A DNA stretch of 40,810 nt from contig NZ_JAAHGO010000080.1 of assembly GCF_010672455.1 (NCBI RefSeq), positions 1 to 40,810 on the forward strand. Reading direction: 5' to 3'. The notes under the pieces are model-generated. The model worked only from the letters and a program-made list of their open reading frames with translations, did not search any database and had not been told where the DNA came from. Origin of the DNA: Okeania sp. SIO2C9. Its GTDB lineage: Bacteria > Cyanobacteriota > Cyanobacteriia > Cyanobacteriales > Microcoleaceae. Positions within the stretch are counted from its first letter, which is position 1; the number at the start of each line of letters is the position of its first letter. Of this stretch, positions 20,315 to 38,189 are shown piece after piece. A program made the position numbers and the translations under genes.

Positions 20315-20910
20315 ACATAAGCTTCAAGAATTTAGAATTTAGAATTTAGAATTTAGAATTTAGAATTATCTCTTCTTTTCAAGGAGAGGATTGACTAATC
20401 ATGAAAATTTTTATTTATTATCCCCTTAAAAGGGGAGGCTTTAAACCACTATCCAACAGTTATTACTCTGCTGATTTGCGTATGCTCTGTTTCTATAGAA
20501 CGAATACATAACAATAAGATAACTACCATATTTTATACTTTAAAGGAAAACTTCAATTCTCACATCTGATTCCTGATTGCTATATATAAGTTTTGATTGG
20601 GAATAGAGTAAACTAAGACGCATTTAGATTTTATGTTCTCTGTTCCCTTTTTCCTTTCAAAAAAATCGTATAGCAGGGAAGGCGCACAAAGATAGGCAAC
20701 AGGCAAATAGGGAAAAGCATTGATTTCCCTGTCGATCGTCAGTCTATGTCAAACACTAACTCGTTATTTGCTATATTATATATTATATAGTTTAAATGCT
20801 GAACAGATTACATAAAAAATAGCTTGAAGTCAGAAGTTATGTACTCCAAAATCAAACAATTAACCTCTATATTTTCTATATATAATTTGAGTAAACAAAT
20901 AAATAAAACT
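20315..20910. repeat. Gene-free spacer with TAGAATT heptamers and an R1 fragment
   Basis: Five TAGAATT-type 7-bp units lie at about 20330-20366. An inverted R1 fragment (CCCCTTAAAAGGGGAGGC) is near 20424. AT-rich sequence follows with TATATTATATATTATATAG near 20773. No gene is seen; in-frame start codons at 20824 and 20839 precede the chosen lipoprotein start. Confidence 0.5.
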
Positions 20911-21804: not shown

Positions 21805-21839
21805 TTAGGAATATATAGTTTACTGATGAGGTACAGAGT

Positions 21840-23618
21840 ATGAAAACAGGGAAACTTTTTTCGGCGATCGATAAGTGGAGTAGAGGCTTAAGTATTGCCA
21901 AAAAAATTGGCTATGGCTATTCCCTGGTGATTGGTATTTCTGTGCTAGGGACAAGTTTAGGGCTAATGGTAGGAGACTACTATCAAAGACAGGCCCAAGA
22001 GCAGCTAAGATTAGTACAAAAAAATTATGGTCTGTTAAAAGAGTTAGAAAGTGCTACTTGGGAGGCGCAATCTCATCCCCAACAGCTAGCTGCTGTAGTT
22101 GGTAACCCTGTATGGTTTCAGTATGAAACGACTAAATTTTTGGCTCGGAGTAAACAATTAAAACAAGTAATAAACTCTCTCAAGAATATAATTGATTTTC
22201 AATCAAGTCAATTAGTAGCAGAACCAGAAAAATTTAAGAAAATATTACAAAGTTACACTCAGACATGGAATTCATACACTCAGTTAATACAGGGAATTTG
22301 GCAGGAGACAAATCCAGCTAATTTGCAACCAGAAGATATCCCAGTTGCCAAGCAAAGAGTGTTGGCAGCTAACACGGGGAAAAAGGCAATTGAGATTCGC
22401 ATTGAGTTTGAAAAACTATCAGAAAGCTTAAATCAGTTAATAGATATTGTAGAAAAACAACAAAATCAAGCTAACAAACGATTTATGCATTCACAAATAT
22501 TACGAATCCAAATTATTATTGGTAGTATGACACTATCAGTAGCGATCGCTGCTTGTTTAGCATTTTATACCAGCAAAGCGATCGCCAGTCCACTCAAAAC
22601 GTTAACTAAGACTGCCCAAAGGGTGACAGCAGAATCGGATTTTAACCTGCAAGCTCAAGTCACCACTACTGATGAAGTTGGCTTATTAGCTATATCCCTA
22701 AATCAGCTTATACGATGGGTAGGAGAGTATACTCGAGAATTAAAGTTAACTCATCAAAAACTAGAAAAACGTAGTACTGAACTCACACAAGCTTTGCAAG
22801 ACCTAAAACAAACTCAGACGCAATTAATTCAAACAGAAAAAATGTCTAGTCTTGGGCAAATGGTGGCGGGAGTTGCCCATGAGATTAACAACCCAATCAA
22901 TTTTATTTCTGGTAACATCAACCCACTTCAGGATTATATACAAGAACTTTTGGATTTACTAAATCTTTATCAAAAACTATATCCTGACTTACATCCAGAA
23001 ATAGAAAATTTAATCAGCGAGATCGATCTTAATTATATAATCAATGATTTGCCCCAGATAATTTATTCTATACGGATAAGCACCAACCGAATTAAAAATA
23101 TTGTACTCTCGCTACGGAATTTTTCTCGTCTAGATCAAAAAAACGTGAGGCCAGCAGACCTTCACATAGGGATTGATAGCACTCTATTAATCCTCAGTCA
23201 TCGTCTCAAAAAGGGAATTGAAATTATCAAAAACTATGGAGATTTACCTTTGGTAGAATGTTATCCAGCTCAATTAAATCAAGTGTTTATGAATATCATT
23301 GCTAATGCTATTGATGCGATGCTAGAGTCAGATATTCAACCAAAACAGATTGTGATTCAAACAGAAAAGGTGGCTGAAGATAAAGTCATGGTGAAAATCC
23401 AGGATAATGGCCTGGGAATACCACTAGAAGTCAAAGATAAGATTTTTGATCCATTTTTTACGACAAAACCATCAGGGAAAGGAACAGGTTTGGGTCTTTC
23501 TATTTGTTATCAAATTATTGAAAAGCATAGAGGTAGCATAGAAGTAATCTCCGAACAAGGAAAGGGTACAGAGTTTGCGATCGCTCTTCCTATTCATTCT
23601 AGCAATCTATTGACTTGA
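21840..23618 (+). CDS. Membrane sensor histidine kinase (HAMP, HisKA-like, HATPase)
   Basis: Transmembrane segments at about 22-45 and 222-243 flank a helical periplasmic domain. HAMP spans about 244-296, a coiled coil about 297-335, and the dimerisation domain has the phospho-acceptor His347 in [14 protein letters not shown]. The ATPase domain carries the N box [16 protein letters not shown]1 DNGLGI and G2 KGTGLGL. This is the class common in cyanobacteria, with a long insert after the H box. It probably forms an operon with the PhnD-like lipoprotein upstream (35-bp gap), which suggests the periplasmic domain reads the lipoprotein's ligand. No response regulator gene is adjacent. Confidence 0.9.
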
Positions 23619-24095: not shown

Positions 24096-26306
24096 TCATC
24101 CTCTCAAAGATAGCGCTGACGATCTTTCTACAGAATACTCTGATTCCATCAAATCTTCCATAGCAGCAGTTTCAAATTTAATTGGCCTCAACTGCACCGC
24201 ACAAGCTTTTAACTCTGGTTGCCCAGACTCAGGACAAACTTGAGGATGAGTCAAAGCATTTGCCTCTGCTTGATTTGCCCATAGTGCTCCCCAGTGCATC
24301 GGCACAAATACAGTACCTGGAGTAATAGCTTTAGTCACTTTTGCGGGAAATCTTGCCCAACCTCGTCGCGATCGCACTTCTACCCAATCATTTTCTTCAA
24401 TCTCTAACTTCTGAGCATCCTTTGGATGAATTTCTAGAAAAGGCATCGGGTGCATTTTTCTAATTTTATCAATGCGTCCTGTGCGTGTTTGAGTATGCCA
24501 ATGACCATATAAACGCCCTGTTGTCAACACAAAAGGATAATCAAAATTTGGTGGTTCTGCTAAACCTTGGGAGTAAAATGCAGCAAACCGTGCCCTGCCA
24601 TCAGGAGTATTAAATCGTAAATCAGTATACAGACGCTCCTGAGATACTCCACTACTATCAGGGCAAGGCCACTGGACCGGACCCTTTTCCCGTAACCGCT
24701 CGTAGGTAATATCAGTCTGGTCGCAAGGACGATCGCGTGTCAATTCAATAAATTCAGCTCTCACTGCTTCCGAATCAGCAAAATCAAACTGATTTGTAAA
24801 TCCTAAACGACGACCCACCTCTGCAAAAATTTCCCAATCTGCTTTTGCTTCTCCCAAGGGTTCGCGGAATGCAGAACACAAAGTCACCATTCGCTCGGAG
24901 TTTGTCATCGTTCCTGTTTTTTCTCCCCACTGAGCAGCAGGTAACAACAGATGAGCATATTCCGCTGTTTCAGTAGGATAATAAGCATCCTGATAAACAG
25001 TAAAAGGCGATCGTAACAAAGCGGCCTTAGTCCGCTCTAAATCTGGCATACTCACAGCAGGATTAGTCGCTGCAATCCACAAACAACCTAATTCCTGGCG
25101 TTCCAAAGCCGTAATCATCTCCCAAGCAGTACGACCAGGAACAGCAGAAATTTGCCCAGGAGTCAATCCCCATAACTTTTCCAAATCAGCCCGATGTTGG
25201 GGATTTTTCACTGCCCGATAACCAGGCAAAATATGAGCCAGTCCTCCTGCTTCCCTACCACCCATAGCATTAGGTTGACCAGTCAGTGAAAACGGTCCTG
25301 CACCCGGTTTACCAATATTACCTGTCATCAAATGCAGATTAATCAGAGTCCGGACTTTGGCCGTCCCCTCAGAGGACTGATTCATCCCCATTGACCACAA
25401 AGATAAAACTTGCTTTGACTCACTCCAATAACGAGCTGCCTTTTCCAAATCATCTAAACGAATACCGCAGTGCCGTGCAACTAAGTCAGGTGGGGAATGA
25501 CGAATCACATCAGTGTATTCAGGAAAACCAGTTGTACATTCATCAATGAATGTTGCATCGATCGCTCCCCAACGCATGAGTAGATTAGCGATACCGTTGA
25601 GTAGATCGATATCAGTACCTGGTCGAATTGCCAAATGCAAATCTGCTGCTTCTGCTGTTTTAGTACGACGGGGGTCTACCACAATCATTTTCACTTTCTT
25701 ATTTTTCTTGTGGTAAACCCGCAGACGATTAAATACAATGGGGTGACATTCAGCTGTATTAGTACCGATTAAAAATGCACAGTCTGTTTTTTCTAGATCG
25801 TCGTAGCAACAGGGGGGACCGTCGGAACCAAAACTTTGAATATACCCCGATACTGCCGAAGACATACAGAGACGAGAGTTAGCATCAAAGTTATTAGTTC
25901 CCAGACATCCTTTGAGTAACTTCTGAGCTACATAATAATCCTCTGTTTGAAACTGACCAGAACCGTACATACATATTGCATCTGGTCCTTGAGTGAAGCG
26001 TACAGTTTGAATCCGATTAACAATCCGATTAAAAGCTTGATCCCAAGTAACACGACGAAAAGGCTCATCTAGAGTATCACGCATCATTGGATATTTGAGG
26101 CGACCTTTATCCAATGCTTCAGCAACAGTGGCACCTTTAACACAAACTTTGCCTTGACTTGAGGGATGAGAGCGATCGCCCACTACTCGCCAAATAGGAT
26201 TACCTTTGCTATCTCGATTTGTTGCTTTTCCAGGAATTGCTGGCGGTAATACATCTAAGCCACAGCCAACTCCACAATAAGGGCAAAGAGTTTTGGTAGG
26301 TTCCAT
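24096..26306 (-). CDS. narB: Ferredoxin-nitrate reductase
   Basis: Cytoplasmic molybdopterin enzyme that reduces nitrate to nitrite with electrons from ferredoxin. The N-terminal [4Fe-4S] cluster is bound by Cys8, Cys11, Cys15 and Cys55 (LCPYCGVGC and GKVCVKG). The molybdenum ligand is probably Cys147 in [13 protein letters not shown]. The C-terminal molydopterin dinucleotide-binding domain begins near [19 protein letters not shown]. Length 736 aa and lack of an FAD/NADH domain fit the cyanobacterial NarB type. It is the last gene, in transcription order, of the minus-strand nitrate block after nirA and nrtP, but 0.9 kb of mobile repeats separates it from nrtP, so it may have its own promoter. 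Confidence 0.95.
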
Positions 26307-26576
26307 AGTTTACTTTAAAAATAATTTTCTTGGCAGACGAATGAGTGAAATTCAAGCGAATATCATTTATACTTAGATGCTAAATCATTTAATTTTGTAT
26401 TCCAGCAGAAGTTATTCTCCTGCTAAATTTTCCCTGATTTTTTGCTATTTATAATTAATATAATATAATGCTTAATCTCAATATTTAAGTTTAATGGTAT
26501 AGAATTTAATTTTTGTTTATTATTGAAGACTTTATGAAAAATTATCTGTCACATTGGATACGTTTTCATAAATTAT
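26307..26576. promoter_or_regulatory. narB upstream region; weak NtcA-like site
   Basis: A relaxed NtcA motif GT-N10-AC is present at 26548-26561 (plus strand GTCACATTGGATAC), 240 bp from the narB start. No TAN3T -10 box is found at the canonical distance on the narB strand, so support is weak. Otherwise the region is AT-rich with TATAATTAATATAATATAAT near 26451 and no gene. Confidence 0.25.
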
Positions 26577-26683
26577 TACCCGCTTTTCCTATACGGTAGA
26601 CCACAGTAGGGACGTTGCATGCAACGTCCCTACTGGGTTTTATTTATGGCAATGTGGTTGATCAATTTGAAAAGCGCTGTCAA
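26577..26683. mobile_element. MITE, TTACAGCGCTTTTC family, with 28-bp palindrome
   Basis: Imperfect inverted ends (TTACCCGCTTTTCC left; GAAAAGCGCTGTCA right) enclose a perfect 28-bp palindrome at 26606-26633 (arms GTAGGGACGT, core TGCATGCA). GGTAGACCACA precedes the palindrome. The related copy at 39925 has the same context in the opposite orientation, with the core TCCATGGA. Confidence 0.6.
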
Positions 26684-26818
26684 ATAATATCATGTCCGGT
26701 TGAACAGTTATAAATAAACTACTCAGGAGTCAGAATTCAGGAAGAAAGAAGAAGATAAGGAGAAAGGCTCTAGATATAGTTAACGGCCGTTAACCCCTAC
26801 AAATGGTATATAATTTCC

Positions 26819-26970
26819 GGCGTTGCTGAATTGAAGTATGAATGCGCGATTGTTTGGTTCTCGCCTTCGCCCCCGCGCATCCCCCAACTTTGGGGGACTT
26901 TTAGAGTTTTATTCCCCCCCAAAATTGGGGGGTTAGGGGGGCTTGCATCATACCCAGAATCAGCAACGCC
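26819..26970. mobile_element. MITE, GGCGTTGCTGA family, with 8-bp target duplication
   Basis: Ends GGCGTTGCTGA (26819-26829) and TCAGCAACGCC (26960-26970) are perfect inverted repeats. TAATTTCC flanks both sides exactly (26811-26818 and 26971-26978). The interior has an inverted CCCCCAA/TTGGGGG region. The element shares most of its sequence with the copy at 28814. Confidence 0.9.
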
Positions 26971-26984
26971 TAATTTCCTGTTTG

Positions 26985-27165
26985 GCTTGACATCCTCCCC
27001 GGCCTAAAGGCACGGGGATTCCTACTAAGCCGTAGCTCCTCGGCGGGTTGACGCTTCACAGGGTGCTGCTTCCTTGGCGGTAGTCTAACGCTTCCCTCCA
27101 CGTCCGCGCACGAGTTTCCGAGTGCCCCCCGGCAACTAATGACACAATAGCATATATTCAATTCA
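26985..27165 (-). ncRNA. Solo omegaRNA / right end of an IS605-type element, tnpB absent
   Basis: On the minus strand the segment runs from an AT-rich left edge (ATATATGCTATTGTGTCATT near 27156) straight into GGCACTCGGAAACTCGTGCG, then a structured region, and ends GGGGAGGATGTCA at about 26988. The final hairpin CCCCGTGCC-TTTA-GGCCGGGG is the typical 3' end of cyanobacterial tnpB elements, where the RE doubles as the guide-RNA scaffold. No tnpB reading frame is present. It looks like an internally deleted element that keeps left end, scaffold and right end. Assignment is by recognition of the conserved end; transcription is not shown. Confidence 0.65.
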
Positions 27166-27176
27166 CTTGCATGCTC

Positions 27177-27203
27177 AAATAAAAAGTCGCCCTACAAGGG
27201 CGA
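27177..27203 (-). terminator. Rho-independent terminator of nrtP
   Basis: On the minus strand, stem TCGCCCT, loop TGT, stem AGGGCGA is followed by CTTTTTATTT. It lies 38 bp after the nrtP stop codon. Confidence 0.7.
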
Positions 27204-27240
27204 GGCTTTAAACCCAATTTTTCGGTAAGTTCTATTAGTA

Positions 27241-28758
27241 TTAGTCTTCAGCAAATATAGGAGCAGATTCTAGATTCACTTCCTCTTCATCCTCTTCATC
27301 CTTATGGTGTTCAGCAAATGAACCCTCTGGCTCTTTCAAGAAGAAAGCACACAGGAACGCAACAATTATTGACATTACACCGAGAACTTCAAAGAAAATT
27401 CTGTTACCAACAGCACCTTCAGGCAATAAACTAAACGTAGTCAGATAAACCACCGCACCTACGTTACCATAAGCACCAACATTACCAGCAATTTGACCTG
27501 TAACTCGGCGCTTAATTAAAGGAACTATAGCAAAAGTAGAACCTTCAGCCGCTTGCACAAAGAAAGAACACATCATAGTAAGTACCACAGCAATAGGTAG
27601 CCACCAACCTCCAGTTACACGACCAAATGTGAGATAACCAATTCCCATCCCAGCAGTCAATACTGTCATTGTCAACTTCCGACTACCAAGTTTGTCTGAA
27701 ATTAAACCACCACCAGGACGAGATGCCAAATTCATAAAAGCATAGCTAGCTGCTATCATCCCCGCCAAGGCTTTATCCAGGCCAAAAGTATTTTCAAAGA
27801 AAGCAGGAAGCATAGAAACTACTGCTAGCTCAGAACCGAAGTTAACAAAATAAGTAAGTTCTAAAATTGCTACTTGGGAAAACTGATAGCGGTCAGCAGG
27901 AGGATAACGCTTCTCACCTGCTACCAATTCTTTATTAACTGCCCAACAGTTATAAGTTTGGAAAGCGTACAAACCTAAGAGCAATAGCCAGACAATATAA
28001 AGTTGACCTTGAGATAGGAAACCAACTTTACTCAAGCGCCAAGCTAGTAAACAAAGAACTCCTGTTAAAGGAAGATTCATCAAAATTAGGAAGAGAAAAT
28101 CTTTCTGGGTAGTAACTTCTAAACCTGTGGCACGCTTAGGCTTTTTATAGACCTTACCAGGAGGGGTATCTTGAACATTGAAGAAATAAAACGCACCATA
28201 AGCAGCGGCGATAATACCTGTTAGAGCGATGGATAACCGCCAGTTCAATATCTCACCGCCACTAAAAGTTAACACAGCAGCTACAGTAGGAAGGGTAAAA
28301 GCAGAAGCAGCAGAACCAAAGTTACCCCAACCGCCGTAAATACCTTCTGCCAAACCTATTTCTTTAGGGGGAAACCATTCAGCTACCATACGGATACCAA
28401 TAACGAAACCAGCACCGACAATACTCAGTGCTAGACGGCTGATAACTAACTGGCTGAAGTTTTGGGCAAGAGCAAAACCTATACAGGGAATAGCTGCATA
28501 CATTAGTAGCAGCGAATAGGTAATTCTTGGTCCATATTTATCTAACAACATCCCAATGATAATTCGGGCAGGTACTGTTAGTGCAACGTTACAGATAGCA
28601 ATAGTTCTTATTTGAGAAGTTTCTAAACCAAAATCTGCTTTTATTGATGTTGCTAATGGGGCTAAATTAAACCAAACAACAAACGATAGAAAAAAAGCAA
28701 ACCAAGTAAAATGGAGGATACGATAACGGCCTCGAAAAGACCAAAGTTCTGTTAACAT
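27241..28758 (-). CDS. nrtP: Nitrate/nitrite permease of the major facilitator family
   Basis: Single-polypeptide MFS transporter of the NrtP/NapA type used by marine cyanobacteria in place of the NrtABCD ABC system. About twelve transmembrane segments are visible. Signature segments include the N-terminal WFNLAPLATSIKADFGL and the NNP-family glycine-rich motif AEGIYGGWGNFGSAASAFTL, with a second AGNVGAYGNVGAVVYL in the C-terminal half. Length 505 aa; an acidic tail (KDEEDEEEVN) ends the protein. It lies between narB and a hypothetical ORF plus nirA on the same strand. A MITE lies 56 bp upstream of the start and a terminator downstream. No clear ribosome binding site or NtcA site was seen directly upstream. 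Confidence 0.93.
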   Translation of the reverse strand: MLTELWSFRGRYRILHFTWFAFFLSFVVWFNLAPLATSIKADFGLETSQIRTIAICNVALTVPARIIIGMLLDKYGPRITYSLLLMYAAIPCIGFALAQNFSQLVISRLALSIVGAGFVIGIRMVAEWFPPKEIGLAEGIYGGWGNFGSAASAFTLPTVAAVLTFSGGEILNWRLSIALTGIIAAAYGAFYFFNVQDTPPGKVYKKPKRATGLEVTTQKDFLFLILMNLPLTGVLCLLAWRLSKVGFLSQGQLYIVWLLLLGLYAFQTYNCWAVNKELVAGEKRYPPADRYQFSQVAILELTYFVNFGSELAVVSMLPAFFENTFGLDKALAGMIAASYAFMNLASRPGGGLISDKLGSRKLTMTVLTAGMGIGYLTFGRVTGGWWLPIAVVLTMMCSFFVQAAEGSTFAIVPLIKRRVTGQIAGNVGAYGNVGAVVYLTTFSLLPEGAVGNRIFFEVLGVMSIIVAFLCAFFLKEPEGSFAEHHKDEEDEEEVNLESAPIFAED

Positions 28759-28813
28759 TTTCTGTTGAATTATAATTATTAAGGCGATGTAAGGTCACAA
28801 ACAAAGATTAATT

Positions 28814-28961
28814 GGCGTTGCTGAATTGAAGTATGAATGAGCGATTATTTGGTTGTGATCAAGCCCCCTAAATCCCCCAATTTTGGGGGACTTTTAGAGT
28901 TTTATTCCCCCCAATTTTGGGGGGTTAGGGGGGCAAAATCATATCCAGAATCAGCAACGCC
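28814..28961. mobile_element. MITE, GGCGTTGCTGA family, upstream of nrtP
   Basis: Ends GGCGTTGCTGA and TCAGCAACGCC are perfect inverted repeats, and GATTAATT is duplicated exactly on both sides (28806-28813 and 28962-28969). It sits between nrtP and its upstream neighbour. The interior matches the 26819 copy, including the CCCCCAATTTTGGGGG inversion. Confidence 0.9.
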
Positions 28962-29236
28962 GATTAATTTTGCTGACAAGTCTAACTAAAAATAATTTTA
29001 GGCAGTTATGAAATTAGTGTCAGAGTTAGGTATTAGTTTAAAGCGAACAATTCAATTTTTTTCTGATAACATAGTAGGCTAGCAAAAATTCTAATTTATG
29101 TATTTTGCAGATTTTTCAGCACTTTAGCATTAAAAAGTTTCTTACTTTCATCACCATCAGTGCAATTTTTAGTTAGTAGTGAATTATATATAAATTTCTA
29201 CCTAAAACCTACTATGTATCACTCCAAACAAAAGAC
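28962..29236. other. Spacer between the 227-aa ORF and nrtP
   Basis: AT-rich, no gene recognised. I searched for GTA-N8-TAC and found no good match, so independent NtcA control of nrtP is not supported here. Confidence 0.4.
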
Positions 29237-29920
29237 CTATTTGGTTACCCATTGGTTAACTTGAAGTACACCATTGGGAGTTAGTAGCACTAAATATTCT
29301 GCTGTTGGTTTGTTAGCATCAACAGTGCTAGAGTTAGTCAACTTAGCTAGAGGAGTTTCTCCAATGTAGTCGGAAGCTGCTTTATTGATATGTTCACACT
29401 TGGCAACCATTCCTGCGGAGTTAACTGTGACTCGATAGGCTAAATTTTCAGAAAAAGTTGGATATTGTTTCCAAGCTTGGTCGATCTGGTTGTACAGCAT
29501 CGAGTTTAATTTCTCAAGAGTATTTGAGTCAGTAATAACTTTTGGTGCTGCTTTAGTTTCTGGAACTGCCAAAGTTACTTCAGTTTGTATTGGTGCAGTT
29601 TCTGCAACAGGTACTGTATTGACTGCTGAGACTGACTCGGTAGTATTAACTGCGGAAGAAACTACAGCAGTTGATGGAGCAGTAGTAGGTTTTGATGTGG
29701 GTGCGCTGGCTATAATAGTAGGAGTATCAGTAGTAGATGTAGCAACTATTGTTTCTTCTGCTTCTTGTTCTTGTTGTTGAGCATATTCTGCTAGAGAACG
29801 CTGCCAACTATTGACATAAAAACCAGCAAATAGTGTTAAACCGACTACAGATAGAATTTTCATACCCAGAGATTTTGCAGTTTCGGGTGAATTGTTAGAA
29901 GTATTAACTGTAGTAGACAT
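29237..29920 (-). CDS. Membrane-anchored protein of unknown function in the nitrate block (227 aa)
   Basis: I do not recognise the family with certainty. One transmembrane segment lies at about 20-38 (MKILSVVGLTLFAGFYV). An Ala/Thr/Val/Pro-rich linker covers about 55-125, and a compact C-terminal domain about 130-227 (NQIDQAWKQYPTFSENLAYR; VLLTPNGVLQVNQWV). The architecture (anchor, proline/alanine linker, small C-terminal domain with a helix then V-V strands) recalls TonB-like proteins, but that is only a structural impression. GGAG lies 10-11 nt before the ATG. Position between nirA and nrtP on the same strand suggests a role in nitrate/nitrite uptake or its co-expression. Two cysteines are not visible; only Cys174-like CEHI is present. 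Confidence 0.75.
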   Translation of the reverse strand: MSTTVNTSNNSPETAKSLGMKILSVVGLTLFAGFYVNSWQRSLAEYAQQQEQEAEETIVATSTTDTPTIIASAPTSKPTTAPSTAVVSSAVNTTESVSAVNTVPVAETAPIQTEVTLAVPETKAAPKVITDSNTLEKLNSMLYNQIDQAWKQYPTFSENLAYRVTVNSAGMVAKCEHINKAASDYIGETPLAKLTNSSTVDANKPTAEYLVLLTPNGVLQVNQWVTK

Positions 29921-30069
29921 TTTTGAGATTCTCCTTGTTGTTTTTTTGCTTTGAGTGTAATAAATAAATTTTTGCTGTGAGACTAAATTTGAGAGGCTAT
30001 TTAAGCTTCTCCATTTATGGAGAAAAAAGAAAAAAAATCCTTTGCTCCAATCCTCTTAACTCTATCAGA

Positions 30070-30109
30070 AGAGGTAATTCTAAATTCTAAATTCTTAATT
30101 CTTAATTCT
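30070..30109. repeat. AATTCTA/AATTCTT 7-bp satellite after nirA
   Basis: Five 7-bp units occupy the 40 bp next to the nirA stop codon, after an R1-like edge (GAGGTAATT). Confidence 0.7.
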
Positions 30110-31642
30110 TCAATTTGGTTGACCACCAAAATTTTCAATTAGCAAATTCCGCAAAACAGGTTTGAGGTCTTCACAGGCAATGCCTTTTTGAACGCAATTG
30201 CCAAGTTTAGCATCTTTGCCAACTGTGCCTCCCATGTATAGGTCAACACCCTCAACCATTTTGCCATCTTTGCGTGCTTTAGTTCCCATCAAACCGATAT
30301 CTGCAACCTGTGGCTGTCCACAAGAATTGGGGCAACCAGTCCAGTGAATGCGTACTGGTTTTGGTATTGACAGTTCAGCTTCGAGTTCCTTTACCATTGC
30401 CATGGCACGATTTTTGGTTTCAATCAGAGCAAAGTTACAAAACTGTGCCCCCGTGCATGAAACTACGGCCCGAGTTAATGGTTGAGGATTAATAGAAAAT
30501 TTTTCTAGGAGTGGTTCTCCAAGGAATGGTTCTATTCTAGACTCAGGAACATTAGGAATAATAGCATTTTGTTCCACAGTCAGCCGAATTTCTCCATTGC
30601 CATAAACCTCAGCTAGCCGTGCTAGGTCAAACATATTGTCAGCATACAGCCTACCAACCGGAATGTGCAACCCAATATAGTTTAAACCTGGTTGTTTTTG
30701 TTTGTAAACCCCTATATGGTCCCGTTTTTCCCAGATAATTTCGTCTTTTGGAGCTTCTGTCTCTAGAGTTTGCCCCATTTGTTGCTGAACTTCTGAGCGG
30801 AATTTATCCAGACCCCACTCATCTATCAGCCACATTAACCTTGATTTTTGGCGATTTCCTCGGGAGCCATTATCGCGAAATACTTCTAGAATAGCTCGAC
30901 AGATGGCAACAACTTGATTTGGTTCTACCCAAGCTTTAAGGGGTATAGCTGCTGCACAACGTTTGGCCGAGAAAAAGCCACCAACTAGAACATTAAAGCC
31001 AAATTTATCGTTTTTGTAGGCAGGAACAAAAGCAATATCATTTATTTCCGCATGGACAGAATTATCACGGCATCCGGCGATCGCTATATTGAATTTCCGT
31101 GGTAAATTGGTAAATTCGGGGTTGCCTTTGCTATTGCCAGTGATCATGTCTTGGACTTGCTGCACTAACTCACGGGTATCGTACAGTTCCTCTGCATCTA
31201 TTCCAGCTACTGGGGAACCTGTGATGTTGCGTACATTATCCATACCTGATTGAACGGTGGTTAAACCTACTTGTTCAAATCGACGGAAGATGTCTGGGAT
31301 ATCTTCTATTCTAATTCCCCGCAGTTGCAAGTTTTGTCTGGTGGTGATGTCGGCGCTACCGTCTTCCCCGTAACGTTGGACTATTTCTGCCAAGACTCGC
31401 ATTTGTTGACTGGTAATTACTCCATTTGGCATCCGCATCCGCAACATAAATTTGCCTGGAGTTACTGGTCGGAAGAATACACCTAACCATTTTAGTCTGT
31501 GGTCGCGGTCAGTTTTATCTATTGCTTCCCAGCCAATATTGGCAAATTTTTCTAGTTCTGTTTTCACTGCCAGACCATCTTTTTCTGCTTTAAATTTCTC
31601 AAATTTATTTAGTTTTTCTTGGCGCTCTACTGTGCCAGTCAT
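30110..31642 (-). CDS. nirA: Ferredoxin-nitrite reductase
   Basis: Cytoplasmic siroheme/[4Fe-4S] enzyme reducing nitrite to ammonium with six electrons from ferredoxin. The cofactor cysteines are Cys396 and Cys402 (SCTGAQFCNF) and Cys437 and Cys441 (TGCPNSCGQ). The CTGAQFC form is typical of nitrite rather than sulfite reductases. Two ferrodoxin-like half domains are visible (MRMPNGVITSQQMRVLAEIV; HIPVGRLYADNMFDLARLAE). The 510-residue length is normal. GAGG upstream of the ATG supports the start. It is the first gene of the minus-strand nitrate block and has a canonical NtcA-activated promoter 177-218 bp upstream. Confidence 0.95.
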   Translation of the reverse strand: MTGTVERQEKLNKFEKFKAEKDGLAVKTELEKFANIGWEAIDKTDRDHRLKWLGVFFRPVTPGKFMLRMRMPNGVITSQQMRVLAEIVQRYGEDGSADITTRQNLQLRGIRIEDIPDIFRRFEQVGLTTVQSGMDNVRNITGSPVAGIDAEELYDTRELVQQVQDMITGNSKGNPEFTNLPRKFNIAIAGCRDNSVHAEINDIAFVPAYKNDKFGFNVLVGGFFSAKRCAAAIPLKAWVEPNQVVAICRAILEVFRDNGSRGNRQKSRLMWLIDEWGLDKFRSEVQQQMGQTLETEAPKDEIIWEKRDHIGVYKQKQPGLNYIGLHIPVGRLYADNMFDLARLAEVYGNGEIRLTVEQNAIIPNVPESRIEPFLGEPLLEKFSINPQPLTRAVVSCTGAQFCNFALIETKNRAMAMVKELEAELSIPKPVRIHWTGCPNSCGQPQVADIGLMGTKARKDGKMVEGVDLYMGGTVGKDAKLGNCVQKGIACEDLKPVLRNLLIENFGGQPN

Positions 31643-31860: not shown

Positions 31861-32275
31861 AAAATATATAGTTTTATGAACTTAATGTATATATTTAATG
31901 CGTTTATTGCATTTTAGATGTAAAAGAGATAAAGAGATTATAGGGACAAAGCCTACTAACTGTTCCATATTTTTTGTGCTGTAATTAAGATGTGGGTCAG
32001 CTAAGAAATCTAGAAGCTACAAGTCAGTCGTCATTATTAATCAGACAAACAGCGAAATAGCCAAATTGTAAATATACAGAACTTTTTAGGGTGCTCAGGC
32101 GCACTCTAATAATAGTCGAAGGAAAGAGCGCGGACATATCAAAAGCTTAAAACTGAGACAACACAAGGTTTTTCCTCCTCTCCTAGATAACTAAAGCCTT
32201 CTCCCTTCTTTCTTCTGCTATAAAATTTATCTCTTTGTCGCTGTTTCCTTTTCCCTATTGCCTTTCACAAAAAAT
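31861..32275. other. Divergent spacer between nirA and the ethylene-receptor-like kinase
   Basis: AT-rich sequence plus CTTCTCCCTTCTTTCTTC near 32194. A TTG at 32258 could extend the kinase by six codons but has no ribosome binding site. No further gene or repeat is recognised. Confidence 0.4.
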
Positions 32276-34198
32276 ATGTTTAAATATATTCCTCATGGAC
32301 ACTGCTATCTATGGAACCCTAGTTTAGTCAGCTTGCATTTAGTCTCAGATATTCTGATTGCTATTGCTTACTTCTCTATCCCTCTAATGTTGGTTTACTT
32401 TATCCAGCAAAGACAAGATTTACCTTTTCCTTATATATTCTGGCTATTTAGTGCCTTTATAGTTTCCTGTGGGACAACTCATCTTCTAGATGTGTGGACC
32501 TTATGGCATCCCACTTATTGGTTTTCAGGAACTTTGAAGGCTATAACTGCCATAATTTCATTGTTTACAGCTTTTGAACTCCGTATTCTCATACCTCAAG
32601 CTTTAGTATTGCCTAGTCCAGCAGAACTAGAAAAAGCAAATCAGGAACTACACAGACAAATAGTAGAACGCCAGGTTATAGAAACTCAATTACGAGAAAG
32701 TGAAGTTAAATTTCGTGCTGCTGCAGAAGCAAGTTTAGATAGTTTATTTATATTTAATACTCTGCGGGATAAAACTGGACGTATTGTCGATTTTATTTTT
32801 GCAGAGCTAAACTCCCGTGCCGAACAACTCATTTCTATGCCTAAATCAGAAGTATTGGGACAAAGACTCTCCGAACTAATTCCTATCAACGGTACCGGAG
32901 ATTTCTTGGAAAAATACGTTCAGGTTGTGGAAGCAGGTAAAGTTTTCCAAGAAGAGTTTTCCACAAATATTTTTACCCCCAATATCTCCTGGTTGCAACA
33001 CATGGTAGTTCCTCTAGCAGATGGTATTGCTATTACTGCTAGAGATATCACCGAACGCAAACAGATGGAAAAAATATTGCAAGAAAGAGAACAACGCTTC
33101 CGTCTAGCTTTTGACGATGCACCTATTGGTATGGCCCTGGTATCACTAGATGGAGATTTTCTCGAGGTTAACCATGCTTTGTGCGAAATGATAGGTTACA
33201 GTGAAGCTGAATTGATCCAGTTAACTTTCCAAGAAATTACTTATCCTGATGATCTAGCTGCTGACCTTGCCTTTGTGCATGAACTCTTAGAAGGAAAAAA
33301 AAGCAAATACAATATGGAGAAGCGCTATATTAGCAAGCAAGGTAATATTGTCTGGGCAATTTTGAGTGTTTCTCTAGCAAAAGATCCATCAGGCGAACCT
33401 CTGTATTTTATTGCTCAAATTCAAAATATTACTCCCCGCAAGCAAAATGAAGCTCAACAGCAAAGACTGATTACTCAGCTAAAAATCAGTAACCAAGAAC
33501 TAGAAGATTTTGCTTATGTAGCTTCCCACGACTTGCAGGAACCACTGCGGAAAATTCAGACCTTTGGCGATCGCGTCAAAGCTAAATATAGGGAAGTGTT
33601 GGATGAAAAAGGGCTAGACTATCTACAAAGAATGCAGAGTTCTGCCAACAGGATGCAAATTCTAATTAGGGATTTATTAGACTTCTCACGCATTACGACC
33701 AAAGCGCAACCCTATGTACCTGTAACCCTTTCTCAAATAGTAGCAGAAGTTATTGAGGACTTAGAGAACCGCATTGAACAAACAAAAGCTCAGGTGGAAG
33801 TAGAAGAATTACTTACTATTCAGGCCGACTCGATACAAATGCGACAATTGTTCCAAAACTTAATTGGCAATGCACTTAAATTTCATCTACCAGAAAATCG
33901 CCCCATTGTCAAGGTAGAAGCAATTTTACAGTCGGAAACTAATCAAGTTCAAATTATGGTATCCGACAATGGAATTGGTTTTGAGGAAAAATATTTAGAC
34001 CGAATATTTACACCTTTCCAACGCCTGCATAGCAAGCAACAATATCAAGGCACTGGTATAGGACTGGCAATATGTCGTAAAATAGTAGAAAGACACAATG
34101 GTAATATTACTGCTCGTAGTATCCCTAATCAAGGAACTACTTTTGTGATTACTTTGCCCATTGAACAAAGTTTAGATAAGCAAAAGGAGCATATCTAA
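32276..34198 (+). CDS. Ethylene-receptor-like sensor histidine kinase
   Basis: The N-terminal three-helix membrane domain closely resembles that of plant ETR1 and cyanobacterial SynEtr1. SDILIAIAYFSIPL and FIVSCGTTHLLDVW carry Asp25, Tyr32, Ile35, Pro36, Cys65 and His69, the same numbers as in Arabidopsis ETR1 when counted from the ATG at 32276; Cys65/His69 bind Cu(I) there. A helical linker (about 110-140) leads to two PAS domains (about 145-260 and 270-390), the dimerisation domain with His418 (YVASHDLQEPLRKI), and an ATPase domain with N box LFQNLIGNAL and G boxes DNGIGF and GTGIGLAI. Unlike SynEtr1 no GAF domain is seen. It is followed 2 bp later by an Rcp-type receiver gene. Binding is inferred from residues, not shown. 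Confidence 0.93.
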   Translation: MFKYIPHGHCYLWNPSLVSLHLVSDILIAIAYFSIPLMLVYFIQQRQDLPFPYIFWLFSAFIVSCGTTHLLDVWTLWHPTYWFSGTLKAITAIISLFTAFELRILIPQALVLPSPAELEKANQELHRQIVERQVIETQLRESEVKFRAAAEASLDSLFIFNTLRDKTGRIVDFIFAELNSRAEQLISMPKSEVLGQRLSELIPINGTGDFLEKYVQVVEAGKVFQEEFSTNIFTPNISWLQHMVVPLADGIAITARDITERKQMEKILQEREQRFRLAFDDAPIGMALVSLDGDFLEVNHALCEMIGYSEAELIQLTFQEITYPDDLAADLAFVHELLEGKKSKYNMEKRYISKQGNIVWAILSVSLAKDPSGEPLYFIAQIQNITPRKQNEAQQQRLITQLKISNQELEDFAYVASHDLQEPLRKIQTFGDRVKAKYREVLDEKGLDYLQRMQSSANRMQILIRDLLDFSRITTKAQPYVPVTLSQIVAEVIEDLENRIEQTKAQVEVEELLTIQADSIQMRQLFQNLIGNALKFHLPENRPIVKVEAILQSETNQVQIMVSDNGIGFEEKYLDRIFTPFQRLHSKQQYQGTGIGLAICRKIVERHNGNITARSIPNQGTTFVITLPIEQSLDKQKEHI

Positions 34199-34200
34199 AG

Positions 34201-34650
34201 TTGAATAAAACACCAGTACCAATTCTCATAGCTGAAGATGATGAGGACGATCGTCTCCTGGTAATGGAAGCTTTTGAGGAAAGTAAATTACTGAATAAAT
34301 TATATATTGTTGAGGATGGGGAAGAATTATTAGATTTTTTATATCATCGAGGTGCTTATACAGATATCACAACTTCACCTCAGCCAGGAATAATTTTGTT
34401 AGACTTAAATATGCCTAAAAAAGATGGCAGAGAAGCTCTCAAAGAAATTAAAACTGACCCTAATTTACGTTTGATTCCTGTTGTAGTTTTAACTACTTCT
34501 AAAGAAGAAGAAGATATCTATACTTCTTATAAATTAGGAATTAGTTCATTTATTGTCAAGCCAGTAACATTTGAGGAATTAATAGCAGTAATTCAAGGTT
34601 TGAGTAGATATTGGTTTGAAATTGTTGAACTACCTGCTCGAAAAGATTGA
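34201..34650 (+). CDS. Rcp1-type single-domain response regulator
   Basis: Receiver-only protein of 149 aa. The acidic pocket EDDEDD lies at 12-17, phospho-acceptor Asp68 in ILLDLNMPKKDG, conserved Thr98 in LTTS, and Lys120 in FIVKPVTF. The long loop after helix 2 (FLYHRGAYTDI) is typical of Rcp partners of phytochrome-like kinases. The start is TTG at 34201, with GGAG 11 nt upstream inside the end of the kinase gene. The 2-bp gap to the kinase makes them one transcription unit and a probable phosphotransfer pair. With no output domain, its target must be another protein. Confidence 0.9.
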   Translation: MNKTPVPILIAEDDEDDRLLVMEAFEESKLLNKLYIVEDGEELLDFLYHRGAYTDITTSPQPGIILLDLNMPKKDGREALKEIKTDPNLRLIPVVVLTTSKEEEDIYTSYKLGISSFIVKPVTFEELIAVIQGLSRYWFEIVELPARKD

Positions 34651-34717: not shown

Positions 34718-34989
34718 ATATCATGTCCGTTGGTATTGTTTGTGTAAAAGTTGGGAAAATATCTACTGCCATATAAGTAAAATTTTTCCTTCTCTTAAAG
34801 CTTCTTCCTTCTTCCTTCTTCCTTACCAAAAAATGAGGGTATGTGCCTCCCCTTTTAAGGGGATGAAAAAATATTCAGTTCAGTATTTCAAGCCTCCAGC
34901 TTTAGTCGGAGGTACTGATAACTGATAACTGATAACTGATAACTGAAATGACCTTCTCTATACAAGACCGATGCTACCGGACATGATAT
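34718..34989. mobile_element. ATATCATGTCCG MITE interrupted by another repeat
   Basis: The 12-bp ends ATATCATGTCCG (34718-34729) and its complement (34978-34989) match the simple copy at 23639. Between TTCCTTACC and TTCTCTATACAA, which are contiguous in that copy, this one has 126 extra bases (34828-34953). Without them it would be 146 bp. Confidence 0.85.
34828..34953 (+). mobile_element. R1-type repeat inserted in the MITE
   Basis: The insert contains CCTCCCCTTTTAAGGGG, AAGCCTCCAGCTTTAG and a CTGATAA 7-bp array (about 34914-34943), and ends AACTGAAATGACC. ACC is present on both borders and may be a 3-bp target duplication. Confidence 0.7.
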
Positions 34990-35058
34990 TAGTTACAATG
35001 ACAATTGTTTAACTGAATATAACGATGATTCATAGTATATAAATTCAAGCAGATTTTT

Positions 35059-37719
35059 ATGCAAAAATACACTATTAATATTCTACTAATAGAAGATGAT
35101 GAAGATGATTTTATCGCCATCAATGACATTTTATCAGAAGTAGAGTCACCAAAAATATCTCTGGATTGGAAAAATACTTATGAAGAGGGATTAGATGCAA
35201 TACAAATAGGAGAATATGACGTTTGTTTGCTTGACTATCGTTTAGGAGAAAAAGACGGAATAGAATTACTAAAAACAGCAATAGAACTTAATTGTCAGAC
35301 ACCAATTATATTCATTACAGGTCAAGGCGATCGAGAATTAGACCTGCTGGCCATGAGAATAGGAGCAGCAGATTACTTGAATAAATTAGAAATTCGAGAA
35401 CATACATTAGAGCGAGTAATTCGTTATGCAATTGAAAGAAATAAAAATTTAATTGCCCTCCAAGAAATTCAAGCCAAACTACAAGAAGCTCAAAAAATTC
35501 CTCATTTAGGTAACTGGGAATTAAACCTAAAAACACAGAAAATAACTTGGTCTGATGAAGTATTTCGGATTTTTGGTCTGAGTGGGACTCAAAAGCAGCC
35601 AACTTATGCAGAATTCCTGCAAATGTTCGTTCCCGAAAGTAGAAAATTATGGTCAGAAAATATGACTTTAATCTTAGAGAAAACACAAAAGTGTGAATGT
35701 GAATATGAAATAATTCGCCCGGACGGAACACTGAGATATCTTTATACTAAGACGACTGTAATCACAAATAGTAACTTAGAATCAATCAAAATATTTGGCA
35801 CAATTCTAGATATTACAGAGCGCCAACTAGCCGAATTAGAAGTCAAAAAAATTAGAAAACAAGAGCATTTATTAAGTCTGGTGATAGACAGAATTAATCG
35901 GTCTTTAAACTTAGAAGAAATATTAGAAACTACAGTAGAGTCAGTGAGAGAGTTTTTGCAATGCGACCGCGTAATAATTTACCGTTTCTTATCAAATGGT
36001 CATGGTCTTGTAGAAAAAGAATCTTTAGCACCAAATTGTCTTTCACTGTTAGGAATGACAATAGTCGATCCATGTTTTCGCAACAGCGATATTTTAGAAC
36101 GTTATAAACAAGGATATTTTAGTATTATTCATAATATTAATCAATCGGAGATGCAACAATGTCATATTGATATGCTCAGGGATTTTCAGGTGCAAGCAAA
36201 TATAGTACTACCTATCTTAATTACAAACGAAACTGAAAACAAAAATCATACTGACAAATCAGAAATTAATGTATGGGGGTTATTAATAGCTCATCATTGT
36301 CGAGAAAATAGACAGTGGAAAATATCGGAAACCGACTTATTAAGACGCTTGGCAGCTCAGACAGCGATCGCTATTCAACAAGCTCAACTTTATCAACGCT
36401 TAGAAAAACTTAATCAAGAATTAGAAGCAATTGCATATATTGATGATTTAACAGGAGTGTTTAACCGTCGTCATTTTGAGCAAAAATTTAAACAAGAATG
36501 GAGAAGGTTGGCGCGAGAAGAAGCTCTCATCTCAATTATTATGTTAGATATAGACTACTTTAAACCTTATAACGATACCTACGGCCATCAACAGGGAGAT
36601 AAATGTTTGCAACAAGTAGCTAAAACTATTAAAGCGACAGTGAAACGACCAGGAGATTTTGTCGCCCGATATGGTGGAGAAGAGTTTGTAGTTGTGTTGC
36701 CAAATACCCCCATGGAAGGAGCACTTAAGGTGGCAGAAAATATCAGAACAGAAATTGAAGCTTTAAAAATTCCTCATCAAGCTTCAGCAACAAGTCAGTG
36801 GGTGACAAGTAGTTTAGGAGTTGCAGATACTAATTGCTCAAAAACATCTAATCCAGATAGATTGCTAAAAGCAGCAGATACTGCTCTCTACAATGCTAAA
36901 ACTTCTGGCAGAAACCGTATAGGGATTTATTATGTATGTATGGAAAGTCTAGAGAAACAACAGCAAGAAATTAATTTAGTTACACAACTACGAGATGCTT
37001 TAAGAGAAAATGGTTTTTGTCTGTTTTCACAAGCAATTGTCCCATTGCATGAAGGTGTACAAGCAAGACTTTATGAAATTTTGCTCAGATTTAGATATCC
37101 TTCAGGTAAAATTGTTTCACCAGCTGCTTTCCTACCAGTAGCGGAGCGCTATCATCTAATGCCAAGAATTGACCGTTGGGTCGTAAAAAATCTACTATAT
37201 TTCCTGTCTTCGCAGAAAATTGATAATTCACACCTAGATTGTATTTTTACTGTTAATCTTTCTGGTGCTAGCATCAACGACAGCCATTTTCTAGAATTTA
37301 TCGAACATCAATTTGCCTATTTTGAAGTGCCCCCCCAAAAAATTTGTTTTGAGATTACTGAGACCATAGCCATTACTAATTTAGATAAAGCAGCAAAATT
37401 TATTCACTCTCTCAAACAAGTTGGTTGTAGTTTTGCTTTAGATGATTTTGGCAAAGGAATGTCTTCTCTTTCTTATCTCACAAACTTGCCAGTAGATTAT
37501 CTCAAGATTGACGGGATGTTTATTAAGAAGATGGAAAAAGATACTGTCACTCAAGCAATAGTAGAAGGTATTCATCATATTGGCAGGGCAATGAATTTAA
37601 AAGTAATAGCTGAATATATAGAAACAGAGTCAATTCTCAACAAAGTCAGTAGTTTAGGAATAGATTATGGTCAAGGCTTTTATCTTGACAAACCCAGCGC
37701 ACTTTTGTCTTCTGTTTAA
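35059..37719 (+). CDS. REC-PAS-cyanobacteriochrome GAF-GGDEF-EAL protein
   Basis: Bifunctional-looking cyclic-di-GMP enzyme. Receiver 1-125 with Asp59 (CLLDYRLGEKDG); PAS about 145-255; GAF about 280-445; GGDEF about 455-625; EAL about 640-880. The GAF has the cyanobacteriochrome canonical Cys368-His369 (EMQQCHIDMLRDFQVQAN) and a DXCF motif, DPCF at 337-340 with Cys339, so a covalently bound bilin is predicted. GGEEF (539-543) is intact and preceded five residues upstream by an RPGD inhibitory site (530-533). EAL keeps the key residues: Glu673 (as EIL), Asn733, Glu765, Asp795-Asp796, Lys816, Glu852, Gln872, with DFGKG instead of the usual DFGTG. It may be light-controlled and phosphorylation-controlled. 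It lies 0.4 kb after the Rcp gene. Confidence 0.92.
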   Translation: MQKYTINILLIEDDEDDFIAINDILSEVESPKISLDWKNTYEEGLDAIQIGEYDVCLLDYRLGEKDGIELLKTAIELNCQTPIIFITGQGDRELDLLAMRIGAADYLNKLEIREHTLERVIRYAIERNKNLIALQEIQAKLQEAQKIPHLGNWELNLKTQKITWSDEVFRIFGLSGTQKQPTYAEFLQMFVPESRKLWSENMTLILEKTQKCECEYEIIRPDGTLRYLYTKTTVITNSNLESIKIFGTILDITERQLAELEVKKIRKQEHLLSLVIDRINRSLNLEEILETTVESVREFLQCDRVIIYRFLSNGHGLVEKESLAPNCLSLLGMTIVDPCFRNSDILERYKQGYFSIIHNINQSEMQQCHIDMLRDFQVQANIVLPILITNETENKNHTDKSEINVWGLLIAHHCRENRQWKISETDLLRRLAAQTAIAIQQAQLYQRLEKLNQELEAIAYIDDLTGVFNRRHFEQKFKQEWRRLAREEALISIIMLDIDYFKPYNDTYGHQQGDKCLQQVAKTIKATVKRPGDFVARYGGEEFVVVLPNTPMEGALKVAENIRTEIEALKIPHQASATSQWVTSSLGVADTNCSKTSNPDRLLKAADTALYNAKTSGRNRIGIYYVCMESLEKQQQEINLVTQLRDALRENGFCLFSQAIVPLHEGVQARLYEILLRFRYPSGKIVSPAAFLPVAERYHLMPRIDRWVVKNLLYFLSSQKIDNSHLDCIFTVNLSGASINDSHFLEFIEHQFAYFEVPPQKICFEITETIAITNLDKAAKFIHSLKQVGCSFALDDFGKGMSSLSYLTNLPVDYLKIDGMFIKKMEKDTVTQAIVEGIHHIGRAMNLKVIAEYIETESILNKVSSLGIDYGQGFYLDKPSALLSSV

Positions 37720-37974
37720 AGAGTCAGGAGTCAGGAGTCGGGAGTCAGGAGTCAGGAGTCAGGAGGAAATAAAAAGAAGAAGGAAGAAGAGGAGAAAATT
37801 TTTTCATCACTAATTATCCGGACATGATATAAATATTATACCAAATTGAAATGAAGCTGCATAGAATAATACTTAAAGCACAATTGACTGTAGATAGGCA
37901 TAGATAAATATAGATTAATGAATGAATTTCGTAATTCTATGCAACCTCATATAAAATTGGTATTAGATATCTCC
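37720..37974. repeat. GAGTCAG 7-bp satellite and spacer
   Basis: Six GAGTCAG-type units (37721-37764, one with GAGTCGG) begin 1-2 bp after the stop codon, then AAGAAGGA-rich sequence. CCGGACATGATATAAAT near 37818 is an end fragment of the ATATCATGTCCG MITE. No gene is seen. Confidence 0.7.
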
Positions 37975-38055
37975 AAAAATCAATTCTCATAAAGAAATTA
38001 TCAATTATTTCTCTCTACTGCCTACTGCCTACTGCCTCTTTTGGAAGAGATGTCT
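37975..38055. mobile_element. AGACATCTCC-family MITE (81 bp)
   Basis: Left end AGATATCTCC and right end AGAGATGTCT, with CTACTGC 7-bp units inside (about 38015-38036). It lies 3 bp before the next member. Confidence 0.65.
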
Positions 38056-38058
38056 ATT

Positions 38059-38189
38059 AGACATCTCCAAAAATCAAAAATCAAATTAATTCTTATCCAT
38101 AAATTATCAATTCTTCCTCCCTATTCCCTGTTCCCTGTTCCCTGTTCCCTGTTCCCTGTTCCCTGTTCCCTCTTTTGGAGGAGATGTCT
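38059..38189. mobile_element. AGACATCTCC-family MITE with a TTCCCTG array (131 bp)
   Basis: AGACATCTCC (38059-38068) and GGAGATGTCT (38180-38189) are perfect inverted ends. Inside, CCCTGTT 7-bp units repeat about six times (38124-38171). An open frame here is only repeat. The 177 bp up to the next gene hold nothing recognisable. Confidence 0.75.

Follow-up and report, generated by a model that had tools for sequence, protein, structure and literature searches.

A probable light-regulated cyclic-di-GMP enzyme with a DXCF cyanobacteriochrome and a receiver domain in Okeania sp. SIO2C9, and its relatives with other outputs

The stretch of 40,810 nucleotides analyzed here (contig NZ_JAAHGO010000080.1 of Okeania sp. 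SIO2C9; in the following, the window) contains a gene for a protein of 886 amino acids (aa), which combines a receiver, a PAS, a GAF, a GGDEF and an EAL domain. We consider it probable that this protein acts as a light-sensing enzyme with a sensor of the DXCF class of cyanobacteriochromes (CBCRs); light would shift the balance between synthesis and breakdown of cyclic-di-GMP (c-di-GMP) and the receiver would act as a second input. Position and architecture of the gene had been proposed in a preliminary description of the window and were confirmed: the open reading frame (ORF) comprises 886 codons on the plus strand, and all five domains were found in the expected order above the Pfam gathering scores. 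A PHY domain was not listed in the Pfam scan of the protein. The genome assembly comprises 10.9 Mb in 317 contigs. The following features of the gene were determined:

35059..37719, plus strand: protein with receiver, PAS, DXCF cyanobacteriochrome GAF, GGDEF and EAL domains, 886 aa (ORF from ATG to stop, Pfam, motif script)
35080..35400, plus strand: receiver domain, residues 8-114 (Pfam Response_reg, 4.6e-14)
35233-35235, plus strand: codon of Asp59 of the receiver, within LLDYR (motif script)
35539..35802, plus strand: PAS_3 domain, residues 161-248 (Pfam)
35908..36375, plus strand: cyanobacteriochrome GAF domain, residues 284-439 (Pfam, PDB sequence search, alignment, tree, model, Foldseek)
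36067..36078, plus strand: DPCF motif, residues 337-340, with the second cysteine Cys339 (motif script, alignments with the family and TePixJ)
36160..36165, plus strand: canonical chromophore site Cys368-His369 (motif script, alignments with the family and TePixJ)
36433..36918, plus strand: GGDEF domain, residues 459-620 (Pfam)
36646-36657, plus strand: RPGD inhibitory site, residues 530-533 (motif script)
36673-36687, plus strand: GGEEF, residues 539-543 (motif script)
36985..37695, plus strand: EAL domain, residues 643-879 (Pfam)
37441-37458, plus strand: DDFGKG, residues 795-800, in the EAL domain (motif script)

As a DXCF cyanobacteriochrome we regarded a GAF domain of the CBCR lineage without PHY domain, with a canonical cysteine (usually as Cys-His or Cys-Tyr) and a second cysteine within the motif Asp-Xaa-Cys-Phe. 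The 886-aa protein possesses a CBCR-type GAF without PHY, and Cys368-His369 and DPCF (337-340) were found by script at the residues named in the preliminary description. Searched by sequence against solved structures, the GAF gave 48 matches, the best of them 6oap (E 5e-35), RcaE and TePixJ (E 5e-24); by depositor names we take all 48 to be CBCRs, phytochromes or fluorescent proteins derived from them. For the GAF alignment, domains from the same genome and from a Thermosynechococcus-like genome (G410) were combined with four PDB chains. The labels SesA-, SesB- and SesC-like, which are used for three proteins of G410 throughout, were deduced from size, architecture and position in this genome. 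In the alignment, which had been suggested earlier as a check, the columns of Cys339 and Cys368 coincide with both cysteines of TePixJ and of the three Ses-like proteins; the GAFs of these three all carry the DXCF motif and are 37-40% identical to the window GAF. An AlphaFold2 model of the GAF, built from 16 sequences (pLDDT 86.3, pTM 0.84), was compared with known structures by Foldseek; the best 50 of 740 matches comprised only chains of CBCRs or phytochromes and fluorescent proteins derived from such chains, and TePixJ (4glq) was matched with a TM score of 0.88 (target length). A placement outside the CBCR lineage by profile or structure model, which the preliminary description had named as counter-evidence, was not observed, as both searches led to CBCRs and phytochromes. 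Motif columns, PDB matches and predicted fold thus support the assignment of the GAF to the cyanobacteriochromes. The genome encodes three proteins matching the bilin reductase family above the Pfam cut-off. Two further loci of the genome (G000:C262 and C275) encode proteins with several CBCR-like GAFs, some of them of DXCF type.

Homologs of the module consisting of receiver, PAS and GAF were found with three different outputs: GGDEF-EAL, GGDEF alone, and a second GAF and PAS followed by a class III cyclase. A GGDEF-only paralogue is present in the window genome itself (L033:8740-10623, G000:C190); it comprises 627 aa, is 66% identical over residues 1-645 and retains both cysteines. Proteins of the third type, here called cyclase twins, occur in three Okeania genomes (G001, G002, G004):

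L025:7862-10828, L028:8469-11420, L029:420-3380: cyclase twins, with receiver, PAS and DXCF GAF, then GAF, PAS and class III cyclase

They comprise 983-988 aa, are 81-87% identical to the window protein over residues 1-456, and their canonical cysteine precedes Tyr, not His. The C-terminal half was assigned by Pfam in one of the three twins and by alignment in the other two; it carries the motifs KIKTIGD and DLWGD, which we take to be of the adenylyl cyclase type.

The family alignment contained 12 rows, namely six GGDEF-EAL, three GGDEF-only and three cyclase proteins. Not included were the c-di-GMP twins of G004 and G002 (gap; contig end), the GGDEF-only protein L019 of G001, whose translation was out of frame, the fragment L020 of G021, and L016 and L044 of G034, in which the GAF start occurs twice in different frames. 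Asp59, the complete DPCF motif (D337, P338, C339, F340) and C368 are invariant in all 12 proteins, although the other 11 rows are only 55-93% identical to the window protein over the aligned part; the conservation of DPCF and C368 across three outputs is therefore more than chance. The canonical cysteine is followed by His in 8/12 and by Tyr in 4/12 rows. GGEEF is found in all nine GGDEF-bearing members and RxxD in eight of them. Among the sequences outside the alignment, DPCF and the canonical cysteine are present in L019, L016, L044 and L020 (with Asn behind the cysteine in L020), and L014/L027 show the canonical cysteine, their contig beginning past the DXCF position. With its doubled GAF start the copy in L044:3450-4212 and L016 appears broken; its letters are identical in Hydrocoleum CS-953 and G034, which are perhaps one genome.

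The ratio of nonsynonymous to synonymous substitution rates (dN/dS) of the GAF between the window and three orthologues is 0.19-0.38, which fits purifying selection. Compared with G021, values of 0.19 (GAF), 0.15 (GGDEF) and 0.20 (EAL) were obtained, the receiver gave 0.21 between the window and Okeania hirsuta (G003), and of the 54 domain comparisons with a defined dN/dS, 47 remained below 0.5. Values of 0.5 or more were found for the linker of window/G003 (0.50), receiver (0.68) and PAS (0.50) of G021/G025, the GAF of the G001 twins (0.61), the linker of the G004/G002 cyclase twins (0.58), the PAS of a GGDEF-only pair (0.70) and one EAL comparison treated below. In named records, the closest relatives of the window protein belong to O. 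hirsuta (93%) and several metagenome-assembled genomes (MAGs) of Okeania, followed by Hydrocoleum, a Trichodesmium MAG and a Microcoleaceae MAG with 62-69% identity. Matches at E <= 1e-150, some of them partial or paralogues, were present in nine of 59 genomes including the own one, and profile matches at E <= 1e-200 in two of 291 genomes of the order (the own genome and G002). The family thus looks narrow.

Both output domains carry the residues expected of active enzymes. In the GGDEF domain these are GGEEF (539-543), the series DID..FK..ND..GH..GD, and K614/R618, aligned with the SesA-like protein; RPGD (530-533) represents the RxxD site. The motif script thereby bore out the earlier assignment of GGEEF and RxxD as well as that of Asp59. 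The GGDEF domain is 44% identical to that of the SesA-like protein, its nearest counterpart among the three Ses-like proteins, and the EAL domain shares 33% identity with that of the SesB-like and 31% with that of the SesC-like protein. The GGDEF-EAL part aligns lengthwise with 5xgb, PA0861 (1.6e-100), which we take to be RbdA. The EAL signature reads E-I-L (673-675). Whereas the preliminary description had spoken of almost all EAL catalytic residues, every position checked proved to be present: E673, N733, E765, E768, D795, D796, K816, E852 and Q872 line up with 5xgb and the SesB- and SesC-like EAL domains. Given the intact catalytic sites of GGDEF and EAL, the protein could possibly perform both synthesis and breakdown of c-di-GMP. 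A DFGKG deviation within the EAL domain had been noted as a change that may affect activity. The motif is indeed present, but it is no peculiarity of the window copy, since DDFGKG is kept in all six aligned orthologues; it is therefore a family trait and not a sign of decay, and we rejected it as an indication of a dead EAL domain. Among 79 loci, 44 showed FGTG, 30 FGKG and two FGSG, counts which are biased, as DDFGKGM was one of two scan patterns. Among 29 loci chosen without regard to the motif, 24 carried FGSG, one FGAG and none FGKG. FGKG is thus a lineage trait which is uncommon among these 29 loci.

The receiver of the window protein shows all residues of a phosphorylatable domain, that is the acidic pair E12/D13, D59, T87 and K109.

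Several observations weigh against the proposed function. The GAF tree provides weaker support for the placement among CBCRs than the searches by sequence and fold. In this maximum-likelihood tree of 48 GAFs (left out were own_L160, which duplicates the GGDEF-only paralogue, and L166, which failed the row filter) the 12 family rows form one clade (100/100), GAFs of distant relatives without the two cysteines form another (100/99), and every group of more than one row forms its own clade, all hanging from one open fork. This fork joins the family, the SesA-, SesB- and SesC-like rows, two other DXCF GAFs of the same genome, 6oap, RcaE and the cysteine-less GAFs, so that the tree alone leaves the base open and links the family to no characterized DXCF protein; the DXCF label requires at least six changes on it. 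Compared with TePixJ, the window GAF has one more residue separating both cysteines and a longer loop preceding the last strands, and the color is therefore not readable from the sequence. At position 109 of the receiver the lysine is replaced by His in G021, the orthologue of G025 has RSGS instead of RxxD, and the EAL domain of the closest pair, window/G003, gave a dN/dS of 0.63, a value derived from few changes. Furthermore, by analogy with SesB, a protein with GGDEF and EAL domains may use one activity only.

The closest known systems include those of Thermosynechococcus. In SesB (Tlr1999) a DXCF GAF is likewise followed by GGDEF and EAL in a protein of about 800 aa, the GAF of the SesB-like protein being 40% identical; the latter differs by DSCF, Cys-Tyr and the lack of RxxD, and its receiver match, weak and partial (E 0.058, 49 aa), ends about 20 residues before its GAF, which leaves no room for a PAS domain. 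According to one report, phosphodiesterase (PDE) activity of SesB is raised by teal light and GTP, diguanylate cyclase (DGC) activity is absent, and the GGDEF domain is without residues needed for the latter (PMC5871770). SesC (Tlr0911) also has a DXCF GAF together with GGDEF and EAL and is reported to be bifunctional, with DGC raised by blue and PDE by green light (PMC9090330, PMC5871770, PMC8846402). The SesC-like protein (GAF 37% identical) has a different domain order: it comprises 1240 aa, its GAF lies at about 512-686, the GGDEF follows after about 130 residues, and a receiver match is absent. It carries SGDEF and no RxxD, whereas RxxD is reported as conserved in SesC (PMC5871770), so that the label is uncertain. 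SesA (Tlr0924) has a DPCF GAF directly before a GGEEF domain (GAF 40% identical in the SesA-like protein), with other N-terminal domains, no EAL and no receiver. A receiver and a CBCR GAF are likewise united in a single chain in PPHK of Leptolyngbya JSC-1 (PDB 6oap), which is called a dual-sensor kinase in its PDB title and in the title of a paper and aligns with the window protein in receiver (1e-8) and GAF (8e-34). The integration of phosphorylation and light in one chain, as proposed earlier for the window protein, therefore has a precedent. PPHK differs by its histidine kinase output, by EDQYF without the DXCF cysteine, and by the lack of a PAS domain between receiver and GAF. The Okeania cyclase twin shares the idea of a CBCR-driven cyclase with the cyanobacteriochrome-adenylyl cyclases (cPAC), as these are described in PMC8892541, and has in addition the module of the c-di-GMP enzyme and an extra GAF and PAS; this likeness was drawn from the description of cPAC.

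For the DXCF class it is reported that phycocyanobilin (PCB) is bound at the canonical cysteine and usually isomerized to phycoviolobilin (PVB), that the second cysteine forms a reversible adduct at C10, and that a blue-absorbing dark state and a green-absorbing photoproduct are typical (PMC11284453, PMC4223177). By analogy, we infer the following mechanism for the window protein, including its chromophore and colors, its two activities, the direction in which light acts and the phosphorylation input. The GAF would bind PCB at Cys368 and probably convert it to PVB. Reversible addition of Cys339 to C10 would yield a dark state that absorbs blue and a photoproduct that absorbs green (or teal). 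The light-induced change might then travel along the helix between GAF and GGDEF and, as reported for SesC, shift c-di-GMP synthesis (GGEEF, with feedback at RxxD) against breakdown (EAL), in one or the other direction. Phosphorylation of Asp59 could represent the second input, in analogy to PPHK.

Two rival explanations concern light sensing and enzyme activity. The GAF may sense light while the enzyme works in one direction, either as PDE with the GGDEF as a GTP-binding regulator, like SesB, or as cyclase with a weak EAL domain. We regard this as a serious alternative, although not the favored one: SesB as reported behaves in this way (PMC5871770), and the GGDEF-only paralogue of the same genome could supply the synthesis side. 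However, the residues needed for DGC activity, which SesB reportedly lacks, are kept in the window GGDEF at the positions checked, this domain is nearest to the SesA-like cyclase, the EAL catalytic set is complete, and both domains are present in all six aligned orthologues. A loss of bilin binding in the window lineage, leaving the protein driven by phosphorylation alone, appears very improbable. Cysteine-less GAFs do exist among the kin, as all eight aligned distant relatives with GAF, GGDEF and EAL (from Calothrix, Rivularia, Richelia, Mastigocoleus, Pleurocapsa and Xenococcaceae) are without DXCF and canonical cysteine, two of them (L053 and L093) reading DYCC and DYLC near the DXCF place; in the 12 close members, on the other hand, DPCF and both cysteines are fixed, and the low dN/dS of the GAF points in the same direction.

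A third possibility extends the receiver input to a particular partner. Two genes directly upstream on the same strand have to be considered here:

32258..34198, plus strand: ethylene-receptor-like histidine kinase with ETR1_N, PAS, PAS and kinase domains (Pfam ETR1_N 4.1e-40, HisKA, HATPase_c)
34201..34650, plus strand: single-domain response regulator behind the kinase (Pfam Response_reg 1.9e-18; Asp68 in LLDLN)

The kinase is a possible partner of the 886-aa protein; by phosphorylating Asp59 it might let an ethylene-type signal converge with phosphate and light on c-di-GMP, which we think unlikely. In its favor, the pair precedes the twins in L025 and L028 in the same order, and the ETR1_N domain contains a Cys..His pair (SCGTTH from residue 70), presumably a copper site. 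Ethylene and light sensing are, moreover, combined in one protein in UirS of Synechocystis, according to PMC5812497. The adjacent single-domain regulator, however, is the more natural kinase partner, and the short stretches covered in G021, G011 and G025 show no ETR1-type kinase next to the gene. In G003 a 183-aa fragment is all that remains of the kinase, and a regulator ORF of >=140 aa is missing, yet the receiver with D59 is kept under the low dN/dS given above; a fixed partnership of kinase and enzyme is therefore unlikely to be essential. The light-regulated enzyme with a receiver as second input remains our preferred reading.

The cyclase twins and the origin of the window gene deserve separate consideration. 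The C-terminal half of the cyclase twin is 73-77% identical to a protein with the appearance of receiver, GAF, PAS and cyclase, which occurs in the window genome (C282, 671 aa), in G001, G002, G004 and G011, and as a fragment in G003; the twin therefore looks like the receiver-PAS-GAF module joined to an older cyclase output. In two Okeania assemblies a cyclase twin and a c-di-GMP twin lie in tandem behind the ethylene-receptor-like kinase and the regulator. Both are seen in L025 (G004), and the contig L028 (G002) ends within the start of the second twin, after the cyclase, which backs this order. The c-di-GMP twin of L025 contains a run of N inside the GAF; before this run it is 99-100% identical to the neighboring twin including the Cys-Tyr site, apart from the first 150 bases (91%). 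This near-identity may be due to gene conversion or to an assembly effect. Directly in front of the window gene lies the following element:

34989..35058, plus strand: upstream stretch homologous to the region upstream of the cyclase twin in other Okeania, not to that of the c-di-GMP twin

Over these 70 bases and its first codons (MQKYTIN), the window gene agrees with the cyclase twins of L025 and L028 and, less closely, with that of L029; with the c-di-GMP twins (MEKQIIN), similarity sets in no earlier than the start codon. A cyclase twin was not found in the window genome, in which the C282 protein is the closest cyclase output. Since the window gene possesses cyclase-type upstream sequence in a genome without cyclase twin, the twins have probably recombined.

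Within the sensor the picture is mixed. In segment 351-385, at the canonical cysteine, 0.19-0.21 nonsynonymous changes per site were counted between twins vs. 0.03-0.12 in other segments; synonymous changes likewise rank high there (0.26-0.34 vs. 0.05-0.28), so the segment may have escaped exchange rather than been selected to differ. For the comparison of diagnostic sites a single c-di-GMP twin (G001) was usable as the other pole, and a polarized version was made with six outgroup rows. Unpolarized sites in residues 1-342 favor the cyclase twin (39 vs. 15 for the window, 50 vs. 5 for G003); residues 343-380 (2 vs. 7) and 419-456 (1 vs. 6) favor the c-di-GMP twin and 381-418 (4 vs. 0) the opposite. 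Polarized sites gave cyclase-derived vs. EAL-derived counts of 6 vs. 9 (window) and 9 vs. 6 (G003) in residues 1-342, and 0 vs. 6 and 1 vs. 6 in residues 343-456. For a single clean crossover inside the sensor the result is mixed, and we call the history mosaic and assign no single breakpoint; segment trees of the sensor gave no resolution of the crossover history, and the argument for exchange therefore rests mainly on the upstream sequence and the first codons. The flank downstream of the c-di-GMP twin in L025/L027 is found at G000:C235 without the c-di-GMP gene, an arrangement not explained by simple deletion.

These findings allow a tentative proposal, which we advance with considerable reserve. 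In Okeania the module of receiver, PAS and DXCF GAF would serve three outputs, a cyclic AMP (cAMP)-type cyclase, an enzyme making and breaking c-di-GMP and a maker of c-di-GMP. Tandem twins would exchange sensor sequence by recombination while about 35 residues at the chromophore cysteine stay distinct, so that light would be read differently. The window gene would be a product of such exchange, now located behind the upstream region of the cyclase gene, with the cyclase itself gone and the light input moved from one messenger to the other.

The spacers flanking the gene contain short tandem repeats (34800-35000, 37720-37770 and 38020-38170; CTGATAA, GGAGTCA and CCCTGTT types). Further genes of the window include, at 24096-31642 on the minus strand, a molybdopterin oxidoreductase, an MFS transporter, an unassigned 227-aa protein and a NIR_SIR reductase, which look like a nitrate assimilation cluster, presumably narB, nrtP and nirA. 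The stretch 20824-23618 encodes a phosphonate-binding-like periplasmic protein and, immediately after it, a protein carrying the ATPase domain of a histidine kinase. RTX-type calcium-binding repeats fused to a CAP domain are encoded at 13417-14523 and another RTX-repeat protein at 8376-10001.

Already known are DXCF CBCRs on GGDEF-EAL proteins (SesB, SesC), the combination of receiver and cyanobacteriochrome (PPHK) and CBCR-driven cyclases (cPAC). Neither the window protein nor the twin arrangement is described in the titles and abstract openings of the literature surveyed, which included few subscription papers. The protein offers a clear and testable case of putative light control over c-di-GMP in a marine cyanobacterium that is large and filamentous; its chain also includes an intact receiver. 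The family with its three outputs represents a natural experiment, in which a near-identical sensor is placed on cAMP-type cyclase, GGDEF-EAL and GGDEF enzymes; it permits a direct comparison of how one sensor drives different enzymes, and its parts may serve optogenetics. The possible exchange of a light module between two messenger outputs is the part most worth attention.

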